Assembly (NCBI GenBank): GCA_021848145.1
Contig: JAJZMX010000004.1
Span: forward strand, 124,001 to 188,000
Length of the DNA: 64,000 bases
Reading direction: 5' to 3'
From: a bacterium
GTDB lineage: Bacteria > Patescibacteriota > Saccharimonadia > Saccharimonadales > UBA4665
The notes under the pieces are model-generated. The model made no database searches and was not told the origin of the DNA. It saw only the letters and a program-made list of their open reading frames with translations. Position numbers and translations under genes: made by a program. Each line of letters starts with the position of its first letter. Position 1 is the first letter of the stretch. Shown in pieces: positions 5,167 to 54,845 of the stretch.

Positions 5167-6222
5167 ATGAGAAAAATAAACAATAGGACTATTCAAATTG
5201 CACTTGGAATTTTTTGGCTGCTTGATGGGTTTTTGCAGCTGCAACCTAAGATGTTTACCTCTGCATTTGCAACACGGGTTGTATCTCCTGCAGCTCAAGG
5301 GCAACCCGGATTTGTAGCCGGTTTGATGCATTTTGGAGTAACCTTGTTTTTAACTCATCCGGCAGTTTTTAATGCTTTGTTTGCCCTAACGCAGTTATCA
5401 ATTGGCGCATTAATACTGTTTCCTAAAACCGTAAAGATCGGACTGTCATTATCTATTTTATGGGGCCTAGTTGTATGGGTATTTGGAGAAGGATTTGGCG
5501 GTATTTTCAGTGGCCAATTGTTGCTTATGGGCGCTCCAGGGGCGGCCTTAATTTATGTACTACTAGCTATGGCTGTTTACCCTAGGGTAAAGAAGCTGGA
5601 ACCCAAAATTGCACATTGGCTTGCTTTTGTATGGTTAGTATTGTGGGTTGGTGGAGGAATATTCCAACTTCTACCATTAAATAATTCTACCGGAATTATG
5701 GGTAGTATGGTCGCTGCCAATTCCAGCGGAGCACCCAGTTGGATTGCTACTGCGGATAATGCAATAGCCGATTTTGTCTCAGGCCTTGGAAATAATAATC
5801 ATAACACTGCTTCAAAACAGCCTGCAGTTGTTAGCGTGAGCATGGGTGGAATGGTTATGACAGGCTCGTTTACTAGCAAAGGTCCGTCCCGACCTGGCTT
5901 GGTCTTTATACTCGGGTTTGCTTTGTTGGAGATGGCAATTGGCATAGGTGTGTTGTTTAGGTATCGTAAAATAGCAATAGTTTTAGGCATATTATTGTCT
6001 TTGTGTTTTTGGTTCTTTGGACAAAGCTTCGGGGACATTTATAGCGGGGTTGGAACTGACTTAAATAGCGGGCCGCTATTAGTGATTATGGGCTTGGCTA
6101 TAATTTCCATAAATGATCTAGATATATATCTTTTTGGGATTGGGCATAAACTTAGCGACTGGATTCTTGGTAAACCAAATTTTCAGCGTGAGCTTGTGGT
6201 TAATCCTCATGTTAAAGATTAG
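5167..6222 (+). CDS. multi-TM membrane protein (DoxX-like)
   Basis: ORF 351 aa; internal duplication ('WLLDGFLQLQPKMF', 'VFGEGFGGIFSGQ' / 'FFGQSFGDIYSGVG'). Confidence 0.6.
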   Translation: MRKINNRTIQIALGIFWLLDGFLQLQPKMFTSAFATRVVSPAAQGQPGFVAGLMHFGVTLFLTHPAVFNALFALTQLSIGALILFPKTVKIGLSLSILWGLVVWVFGEGFGGIFSGQLLLMGAPGAALIYVLLAMAVYPRVKKLEPKIAHWLAFVWLVLWVGGGIFQLLPLNNSTGIMGSMVAANSSGAPSWIATADNAIADFVSGLGNNNHNTASKQPAVVSVSMGGMVMTGSFTSKGPSRPGLVFILGFALLEMAIGIGVLFRYRKIAIVLGILLSLCFWFFGQSFGDIYSGVGTDLNSGPLLVIMGLAIISINDLDIYLFGIGHKLSDWILGKPNFQRELVVNPHVKD

Positions 6223-24990: not shown

Positions 24991-25110
24991 GGCTTACATC
25001 ATATCTTTCCCGCTAGCGGGCTAGATGGAGCACCTTACGCCTAAAATGTCGTAGGTTGCTGGCAGGTCATAAAGCTAGGACTCTCGCTGCGCTCTTTATA
25101 TTCTTAAATT
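24991..25110 (-). promoter_or_regulatory. SAM-I (S-box) riboswitch aptamer upstream of metK
   Basis: Minus strand AAGAGCGCAGCGAGAGTCCTAGCTTTATGACCTGCCAGCAACCTACG...CGTAAGGTGCTCCATCTAGCCCGCTAGCGGGAAAGAT: S-box AAGAG, UAUGA, GCAACC, GGUGCU and P4-like stem. Confidence 0.85.
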
Positions 25111-34835: not shown

Positions 34836-36251
34836 ATGAGCTCCAAAATTACTCCCAAATGTTTTTTCAGCGATACCCCTCCTGAACGAATTATTGGCAC
34901 AGAATGTGAATACAATCTACAGCAAGGTAAATATTCTAACGGTAAGACAATCAATATTGATGCATATATTTCAGCTCAGGCTATAACAAAAGCTAAATTA
35001 AACCGATCGGATGTCAGTCATAAATTTTTAAATAATGGAGGAGGACTTTATCCTGAGGTTGGCCAACTTTTGGAATATGACAGTCCAGAGTGTCTAGGCC
35101 CACGTGAGGCAGCAGCAGCGGATATTGCAGGATCACTAATAGTGGCGGACATAGTCGAGAAATCTGGTTTGCCGCATAAGGGCCTATATAGGATTTCGGG
35201 TAGCGATATTAGCAAAGTTCATGATAGCGAAACTAGCGGATATCATGAAAATTATTTAATACCTCGCTGTATAAGTGACTCTCATCTAATTGATGCAGTG
35301 CTGCCAGCTTATGCAGCATCCTGTATATGGGGTTTTTCCGGAATGGTAAGAAGTAGTTATGTTTTTTCGCAAAAAGTTTGGGACATTAATGATTCACCTA
35401 TAGAGCGTAAATTAGAAAGGCGCACTGGACATCATAAGCCTATGTTTATTATTCCCCCAATTAATGCCGACATAGACACTATCGGGCCTAAAGAATGGGC
35501 AAGGGTCGAAAGACGTTATGCTGATTCTGGCTTGTCTCCAGAAGTACGTTACTTGCAGTTTGCTTCTATGTCGTTAGTGCTTAGGATGATAGAGCATAAA
35601 GATAAGATAGACCATAAACGCTTAGCTCGCCTTGCTTTAGTAGATCCAGTAGACGCAGCGAAGGTTTTCGCATCAGATTTAACGCTTAAGAGTAAGGCTT
35701 CTAAAATTAGTGGAGGAAAGATCAGAGCCTTAGAAATCCAAAAAGAATTAATAAGCATAGCTTACTCATTAGATGAAAAAGTTAAACTTCCTGATGATGA
35801 ATCAATGGCGATTGGCTTATGGGAAGATGTGGTAGAACAATTTGGACGATGTGATCCTGCCAACGTAGACTACGGAAACCTGATAACTAAATTAGATGTG
35901 GCCGCACGCCATAAGGTACTTGCTAATAGTTTGGTAGGACCTGGAAGAATTACAAACACCAATAAAGCTGCCGTTTCAAATAGCTTAGTATGGGACAGGG
36001 TGTTGCCTACGGGTGGCGCTCAATTGTGGTGGCAGAAGTTTCAGTCTTCTATTGTTCCAAACGAACTTATTATGGCAATGAAAGAAGGAAGGCATCTACC
36101 CCGGACAAGGGCCGCTATTCGAATTAAAGAACTTAGACGTGACTACTCCAGTAATCATAGGATAAGCACAATAGGTTGGTCGTTTATACATTATGGTAAT
36201 GGCAGTAGCAGCTACCATAGGAGCCTAGACGATCTATATGCAACTAGCTAG
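34836..36251 (+). CDS. PafA/Dop-family protein (divergent Pup ligase-like carboxylate-amine ligase)
   Basis: 'RIIGTECEYNL', 'LNNGGGLYPEVGQLLEYDSPECLGPREAAAADIAGSLI', 'SGYHENYLIPR', 'RALEIQKELIS' align in order with PafA motifs [45 protein letters not shown]. Confidence 0.85.
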   Translation: MSSKITPKCFFSDTPPERIIGTECEYNLQQGKYSNGKTINIDAYISAQAITKAKLNRSDVSHKFLNNGGGLYPEVGQLLEYDSPECLGPREAAAADIAGSLIVADIVEKSGLPHKGLYRISGSDISKVHDSETSGYHENYLIPRCISDSHLIDAVLPAYAASCIWGFSGMVRSSYVFSQKVWDINDSPIERKLERRTGHHKPMFIIPPINADIDTIGPKEWARVERRYADSGLSPEVRYLQFASMSLVLRMIEHKDKIDHKRLARLALVDPVDAAKVFASDLTLKSKASKISGGKIRALEIQKELISIAYSLDEKVKLPDDESMAIGLWEDVVEQFGRCDPANVDYGNLITKLDVAARHKVLANSLVGPGRITNTNKAAVSNSLVWDRVLPTGGAQLWWQKFQSSIVPNELIMAMKEGRHLPRTRAAIRIKELRRDYSSNHRISTIGWSFIHYGNGSSSYHRSLDDLYATS

Positions 36252-36260
36252 TTTAGGATT

Positions 36261-36518
36261 TTATTGGCCACCCTTTTGCACGAAATTCCTGACTAAAGTT
36301 TCCGCATCAACTTTGCCAAACATTCTATCAATATCTCCCATCAGATTATCGATTTCGTCTGTATTTGCCGTGTTTTCATCAAGGACTTCGTCCACTTCGT
36401 CAAGAAAATCTGCTGCAGCGGCAGCTTTAGCTTCTGCGTCAGAGTGATCTGGATTATGTATTGCAGCTACGTTTTCTCTTCTATGTTCTCCTCGCTCTAT
36501 ATGTGTTTGCTTAGACAT
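36261..36518 (-). CDS. pup: prokaryotic ubiquitin-like protein Pup
   Basis: 85 aa, 'ADFLDEVDEVLDENTAN...DNLMGDIDRMFGKVDAETLVRNFVQKGGQ'; C-terminal VQKGGQ identical to actinobacterial Pup tail. Confidence 0.88.
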   Translation of the reverse strand: MSKQTHIERGEHRRENVAAIHNPDHSDAEAKAAAAADFLDEVDEVLDENTANTDEIDNLMGDIDRMFGKVDAETLVRNFVQKGGQ

Positions 36519-54544: not shown

Positions 54545-54845
54545 TGGCTCCGGGGACTGGATTCGAACCAGCGACCTAGTGGTTACACTTTGTCCAACAT
54601 TTCTGTTGGTGTGGACTATCTCATGTTCCAGTATTTGGAACAAGGGCGCTTATGAAGGATTATTGTTAGGCTCACCTTCTAGTCTCTGAACCTTCCAGGA
54701 TCCTTTATCCTAATCCTGGCTTGGCTGCGGATTACCTTGTCTTAGATTTAGGCTTCCCGCAATTCACCCTTTTTTCACTTCGGTGTTACCACCGAAGGCT
54801 GCATAATACCTACAGCCACCCGCTCTACCGCTGAGCTACCCCGGA
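54545..54845 (-). tRNA. tRNA-Asn(GUU), split by group I intron, CCA encoded
   Basis: Exon 1 54845-54812 TCCGGGGTAGCTCAGCGGTAGAGCGGGTGGCTGT; exon 2 54585-54545 TAACCACTAGGTCGCTGGTTCGAATCCAGTCCCCGGAGCCA; spliced anticodon loop CTGTTAA gives GUU; complete cloverleaf. Confidence 0.93.
54586..54811 (-). ncRNA. group I self-splicing intron in tRNA-Asn anticodon loop
   Basis: P AATTGCGGGAA, Q AATCCGCAGCC, R GTTCAGAGACTAGA, S GAGATAGTCC; P1 GGCUGU/GCAGCC with U-G at the splice site; intron ends in G. Confidence 0.93.

Follow-up and report, generated by a model that had tools for sequence, protein, structure and literature searches.

A pair of convergent genes in a genome of the order Saccharimonadales encodes a protein identified by its sequence as Pup, the bacterial counterpart of ubiquitin, and an enzyme of the PafA/Dop fold that belongs to a third lineage and is neither PafA nor Dop. 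Most descriptions of pupylation come from Actinobacteria and Nitrospirae and concern a system of two enzymes that is usually tied to the proteasome. The enzyme of the pair stands in single copy, in a genome in which profile searches found neither a proteasome subunit nor Mpa. It probably both activates Pup, as PupQ (or PupE), and joins it to lysines, a non-proteasomal form of tagging whose chemistry we infer.

Results

The convergent gene pair

The window (the whole stretch of DNA that was analysed, 64,000 nucleotides) lies on a 504-kb contig of a 0.95-Mb genome in 5 contigs, 97.8% complete and with 0.05% contamination; the contig and this low estimate led us to reject contamination as an explanation for the window. 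The following features, in window coordinates, are used below.

34836..36251, + strand: open reading frame (ORF) of the putative Pup-modifying enzyme (PafA/Dop fold), 471 aa, identified by PF03136 match, AlphaFold model and tree
34887..34913, + strand: GhExE motif region RIIGTECEY (residues 18-26), the superfamily-wide ATP/Mg site (PMC2588565)
35055..35057, + strand: GAG codon of Glu74, which phmmer aligns with the catalytic Asp of PafA/Dop
35508..35525, + strand: strand-6 motif ERRYAD (ExRxxD, residues 225-230), replacing [QH]x4D of PafA/Dop
36252..36260, no strand: stop-to-stop gap of the convergent genes, 9 nt
36261..36518, - strand: Pup ORF, 85 aa, PF05639 match (2.1e-10)
36264..36278, - strand: C-terminal QKGGQ (residues 81-85), where conjugation would be expected; the last residue is encoded as Gln
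36318..36344, - strand: Pup helix motif, copy 2, LMGDIDRMF (residues 59-67), in a PF05639 stretch
36372..36404, - strand: Pup helix motif, copy 1, LDEVDEVLDEN (residues 39-49), in a PF05639 stretch

A first-pass annotation of the window had proposed that a Pup gene adjoins a PafA/Dop-family gene in a Patescibacteria-type genome. Both frames are present where it had placed them, on the strands listed above and with 9 nt between their stop codons; the enzyme motifs that it had listed and the ETLVRNFVQKGGQ tail of the Pup ORF are found in the sequence; and the profile matches (Pfam Pup_ligase 2.9e-33, Pup 2.1e-10) are significant far beyond chance. The genome is indeed patescibacterial, being a member of the Saccharimonadales, and the layout, which the annotation had called unlike the actinobacterial gene order, is a convergent one that recurs in 6 other genomes. 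These tail-to-tail pairs are conserved in seven Saccharibacteria genomes altogether (G000, which is the window genome, G008, G012, G017, G056, G069, and G358), with genes that overlap by up to 22 nt or stand up to 11 nt apart in the other genomes, and with reading frames that are unbroken in all seven. Neither of the two results that would have overturned the annotation, an enzyme ORF with no significant PafA/Dop profile match or a GGQ ORF not conserved beside PafA-like genes in relatives, was obtained. The ligase genes of G003 and G008 differ with dN 0.139 against dS 0.91 (dN/dS ~0.15), thus the enzyme gene is under purifying selection.

A search for conserved operon partners found only pup to be widely common to the enzyme neighbourhoods of the window subclade; the Ham1-like gene adjoining the window locus was found again only in G017, and a PIG-V-like gene also occurs in G008 and G025, at differing distances. 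A promoter and terminator scan of the locus gave nothing informative (the terminator-like matches are intragenic), no secretion genes linked to the locus were found, and the pair had no match in the PADLOC (defence) and PHROGs libraries. No relative of the enzyme was found in the viral contigs searched, and the sole match of the plasmid search was from Nonomuraea, an actinobacterial chromosome deposited under the label of a plasmid, which served as a source of reference PafA, Dop, and Pup sequences.

The Pup protein

The product of 36261-36518 matches the Pfam Pup profile (PF05639) at 41.8 bits, against a cut-off of 27, as two stretches; it scores 37.6 bits with the NCBIfam model of the Pup C-terminus (TIGR03687), slightly below the cut-off of 41.45, and its closest matches among PDB sequences are Pup chains, weakly (E 0.04-0.3). 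Pup proteins have been delimited by a C-terminal G[EQ] and a length of 50-90 residues (PMC2588565), and the window protein ends in GGQ after 85 aa. The protein is acidic (computed charge -11), and its predicted structure, which is of modest confidence (pLDDT 65), is unstructured over residues 1-22 and helical over residues 23-69 and 72-83. Like Pup of M. tuberculosis, it is small, acidic, and mostly disordered, with an LDEIDxVL-type helix, a second helix, and a QKGGQ tail; unlike that protein, it carries the helix motif in tandem, as do the Pups of G008 and G069 (two profile stretches were matched in G000 and G069). In mycobacterial Pup, the helix-motif region binds PafA and Mpa. Mpa being absent here, the second copy might serve another receptor, although this is speculation. 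Within the convergent group, the tails read GGQ (G000, G008, and G358), GGE (G012), or NGQ (G017, G056, and G069).

The enzyme: family, fold, and active site

The product of 34836-36251 matches Pfam Pup_ligase (PF03136) over residues 55-448 with an E-value of 2.9e-33 (116 bits against a cut-off of 25). It scores 81.9 bits with the NCBIfam PafA model (TIGR03686) and 61.0 bits with the Dop model (TIGR03688), far below both equivalog cut-offs (551.3 and 492.3, respectively), and some other members of its clade (the window clade, described below) score higher with Dop than with PafA. Its best matches among PDB sequences are Dop chains (8.5e-10), followed by PafA (0.0034). An AlphaFold model built from 12 natural sequences (pLDDT 88, pTM 0.91) aligns with Dop and PafA structures (4b0r, 7oxy, 4bjr) at TM 0.74-0.77, with Dop-Pup complexes at the top, and with glutamine synthetase and glutamate-cysteine ligases (GS/GCS) at TM 0.3-0.4. 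The enzyme has no transmembrane segment (highest 19-residue hydropathy 1.24); Pup likewise has none, and no signal peptide is evident at the N-terminus of either protein.

In the GhExE region, G21, E23, and E25 are invariant across 12 relatives. Glu74 aligns with D64 of C. glutamicum PafA (phmmer alignments with 4b0t and with 4bjr, the D64N structure); this catalytic position is Glu in the window enzyme and in G008 and Asp in G003 and the remaining convergent-pair relatives, and the two residues seem to be interchangeable there. Strand 6 is [QH]x4D in PafA and Ex[RK]x2D in the remaining superfamily (Iyer 2008, PMC2588565); it is of the ExRxxD type in every member of the window clade and reads RLHVI.GD in actinobacterial PafA and Dop. 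The Dop-loop (~40 residues) is absent from the window enzyme, in which the spacing of strand 1 to strand 2 is PafA-like, and the phosphate-holding residues of Dop are not kept: Glu stands at H241, and R227 (the Arg of TRDE) is without a clear counterpart.

The enzyme therefore resembles each of the two known types in part. With PafA it shares the fold, GhExE, the HEN motif, the C-terminal domain, and the lack of a Dop-loop, and it differs in lying outside the PafA clade, in having ExRxxD for [QH]x4D, SQK where SQR is expected, and Glu for the catalytic Asp, and in a rearranged alpha-loop and an RRT..KPM insert. With Dop it shares the Pro in (D/A)(S/T)PEC and the best structural and PDB-sequence matches, and it differs in the missing Dop-loop, the unconserved R227 and H241, and a position outside the Dop clade.

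Phylogeny of the enzyme

In the main tree (46 proteins, long branches included), actinobacterial PafA and Dop form one group (98/93), with a verrucomicrobial enzyme adjoining (100/98), and the window enzyme falls outside it in a separate saccharibacterial clade of 15 rows (100/99), of which a 10-row subclade (98/97) holds all of the convergent pairs. Trees in which the window clade was forced together with PafA were rejected (AU p 1.7e-5; 2e-102 in a smaller set), as were those in which it was forced together with Dop (AU p 1.8e-4). E. coli YbdK attaches as outgroup on a very long branch and the root of the tree is not fixed; rooting with YbdK was set aside, since the branch is too long to decide. 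Because PafA and Dop together exclude the window clade, the AU test rejects joining it to them, and the diagnostic active-site residues differ, the PafA identity that the first-pass annotation had read from the motif order falls, although its assignment to the PafA/Dop family stands; the enzyme is an ortholog of neither. The differences in motifs, loop, and active site lead us to file it as neither PafA nor Dop, yet we hold it to act on Pup.

A further well-supported clade of PF03136 enzymes lacks Pup and comprises those of G002, G006, G009, G014, G032, G042, and G090 (loci L079, L085, L089, L090, L087, L081, and L082, respectively). ExRxxD is kept in six of these seven (G032 reads ExG), and they are possibly ligases for a small molecule or for a tag other than Pup. 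Two PF03136 enzymes were found in a single relative, G037 (L061, L060), where a window-clade enzyme and another with the PafA-type motif accompany a GGQ Pup and offer a natural two-enzyme comparison.

Proteasome, Mpa, and paralogs in the genome

The first-pass annotation had noted that prcA/prcB, Mpa/ARC, and a second PafA/Dop paralog are missing from the window, and profile searches at stated thresholds extend this to the whole genome, in which they found one PF03136 gene, one Pup, no 20S proteasome subunit (PF00227), and no Mpa/ARC OB domain (PF17758). By PF00004 matches and frame length, the AAA ATPases of the genome resemble an ordinary complement. One frame of 625 aa has the size of FtsH, a pair of two-domain proteins has that of Clp, and shorter proteins would fit RuvB, RarA, and DnaA in size, all of these names being drawn from frame size and domain count. 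The window of this reduced genome also holds a group I intron (RF00028, E 3e-19) at 54593-54821 (-) and a SAM riboswitch aptamer (RF00162, E 1.1e-7) at 24998-25104 (-).

Among 100 relatives, the sole clear Mpa/ARC-type proteasomal ATPase is that of G046, at a contig edge (L147, G046:C25:1-16000, 1-1144, - strand; TIGR03689, 512 bits); the composition of this contig matches the rest of the genome, which also encodes Pup and a window-clade enzyme. Distant proteasome-fold peptidases occur at L129 (G035:C2, 954-1817) and L130 (G074:C47, 1409-2209), with 34 and 51 bits, respectively, against an archaeal beta-subunit model; G035 also has a PF03136 enzyme.

Distribution among relatives

PF03136 was found in 32 of the 100 relatives and a convincing Pup in 14, of which 13 have PF03136 (Fisher p 5e-7, a figure that ignores the relatedness of the genomes). 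Sampling 393 genomes from the order brought in 6 further Pup genomes, all with PF03136, so that 19 of the 20 Pup genomes found in the order have a PF03136 enzyme, and nearly all of them have just one. The one exception is G019 (L034/L121, G019:C4), a genome 97% complete with a GGQ Pup (7e-22) and no PF03136 enzyme above threshold. Across 380 genomes of the phylum, Pup was found in this order only and PF03136 outside the order in one genome; within the order, the Pup system is patchy. A Gln-ending Pup coincides with a single detected PF03136 enzyme in 13 genomes of the order, and GGE tails occur in close relatives that share the enzyme type. That a second gene was missed through incompleteness in 13/13 genomes has p ~1e-16 if losses are independent, although the genomes share ancestry.

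Other arrangements occur as well. In G108, G181, G232, and G373, pup lies immediately upstream of a co-directional enzyme gene from a different lineage. In G022, G034, G037, and G046, the window-clade enzyme has a CobO-like gene and the genes of the ATP synthase operon as neighbours, and the separate pup genes of G034 and G037 have UvrC-like and aminopeptidase-like neighbours in common; this sharing of neighbours favours vertical inheritance, and contamination of these several relatives was rejected by their common saccharibacterial synteny. One Pup, at 5903-6127 (-) of L125 (G018:C70:1-12000), lies amid phage-like genes (holin-like and GH25-lysozyme-like, judged by eye), and a Streptomyces phage Dagobah gene annotated 'ubiquitin-like protein' matches this G018 Pup weakly (E 0.06).

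Discussion

Proposed mechanism and its alternatives

In the pathway that we propose, Pup would be made with a C-terminal Gln and its helices would sit in the groove of the single PafA/Dop-fold enzyme, which would convert the terminal gamma-carboxamide (the gamma-carboxylate in GGE relatives) to an acyl-phosphate and then transfer Pup to a lysine of the target protein; in the reverse reaction, the same enzyme would release Pup. The labour divided between PafA and Dop in Actinobacteria would thus be combined in one enzyme. Since neither Mpa/ARC nor a proteasome is present, the most likely fate of the tag would be non-degradative regulation or handover to a general AAA+ machine (an FtsH/Clp ATPase).

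In Actinobacteria, Dop must act on a Gln tail before PafA can, so either both steps fall to the single enzyme here or an unrelated deamidase takes part. Dop breaks the Gln amide via a phospho-Pup intermediate (PMC7947786, PMC8599861), and PafA is able to remove and re-ligate Pup (PMC5358908); we favour the reading in which one enzyme does both because the phospho-Pup intermediate of Dop is the species that PafA transfers to lysine. M. tuberculosis PafA does not deamidate PupGln (PMC5358908) and the activities of PafA and Dop are reported to be separate (PMC7947786), thus a dual activity would be new. The unconserved Dop residues R227 and H241 and the Glu in place of the catalytic Asp would count against it.

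The enzyme might instead be a Pup ligase only, like PafA, with PupQ turning into PupE slowly and spontaneously or through the action of some unrelated amidase; PafA too lacks the Dop-loop, the window protein scores slightly higher with the PafA model than with the Dop model, and PupE is encoded directly in some relatives (G012 and others). We consider this unlikely, since most genomes keep Gln when a point mutation to Glu would make a deamidase needless, other enzymes of the same clade score higher with Dop, and no candidate deamidase linked to the locus was found. The opposite assignment, to a Dop-like deamidase/depupylase only, with conjugates made otherwise or coming from an actinobacterial host, is distinctly improbable: the enzyme gene has a conserved Pup gene as its neighbour, which would be useless to a genome having just a hydrolase, and the Dop-loop, which every known Dop has (PMC8599861), is missing together with R227 and H241, even though Dop chains are the best PDB sequence matches and Dop-Pup complexes the best fold matches.

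Cultivated Saccharibacteria live mostly on Actinobacteria (PMC10633639), many Actinobacteria run Pup-proteasome systems, and occurrence within the order is patchy, all of which would suit delivery of Pup or the enzyme into an actinobacterial host to alter or hijack its pupylome or proteasome. Such a role is nevertheless very unlikely for proteins with no evident signal peptide or transmembrane segment, at a locus where linked secretion genes were not found, and for an enzyme so far from actinobacterial PafA and Dop. Recurrent linkage to Pup (7 convergent pairs), co-occurrence with it, and a fold that is distinctly that of Dop/PafA make it highly improbable that the enzyme is a small-molecule ligase of the gamma-glutamyl ligase type beside a functionally unrelated Pup-like ORF, despite the ExRxxD motif of GS/GCS enzymes (PMC2588565) and the second ExRxxD clade of PF03136 enzymes in the order, which lacks Pup. 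That the locus is a decaying pupylation remnant acquired from an actinobacterium is hardly credible, for although Glu replaces the catalytic Asp and the proteasome, Mpa, and a second paralog are missing, dN/dS is ~0.15 (G003/G008), the frames are intact in 7/7 pairs, and no close actinobacterial locus was found by sequence.

Going beyond combined activation and ligation by one enzyme, we suggest tentatively, and with some doubt, a third class of Pup enzyme outside PafA and Dop, with a GS-type ExRxxD site, which alone might carry PupQ to Pup-lysine conjugates (amide to acyl-phosphate to isopeptide), free of the proteasome, in episymbiotic Saccharibacteria, and might preserve a one-enzyme pathway like that before the PafA/Dop duplication.

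Known systems and significance

Pupylation by one enzyme with no link to a proteasome is already on record for Planctomycetes and Plesiocystis (Iyer 2008). Rhodopirellula and Plesiocystis have homologs of Pup and PafA to which no proteasome genes are linked (Iyer 2008, PMC2588565) and, like the window, a single PafA/Dop homolog next to Pup (PMC2588565; PMC7947786); their enzymes have four transmembrane segments and the PafA-family [QH]x4D, whereas the window enzyme has neither. Single-copy homologs are known in Planctomycetes, with sporadic ones in other phyla (Hecht 2020). Corynebacterium, like the window genome, has a Pup system and no 20S proteasome, but it retains PafA, Dop, and the ARC ATPase (PMC3511204, PMC8223512), whereas the window genome has a single enzyme and lacks ARC. 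Searches of the open-licence literature yielded no paper on pupylation in Saccharibacteria, Patescibacteria, or CPR.

The pair suggests a stripped-down protein-tagging system in a probably episymbiotic bacterium, from a group that seemingly has had none described. A conserved one-enzyme version in such genome-reduced bacteria would reveal the minimal form of the pathway, and its enzyme would be a natural test of how ligase and hydrolase activities were separated, a question studied by mutagenesis (PMC7947786). Close relatives differ in the catalytic residue (D or E) and in the end of the Pup tail (Q or E) and lend themselves directly to comparison, and such a system would raise the question of what role Pup has where tagged proteins have no degrader.
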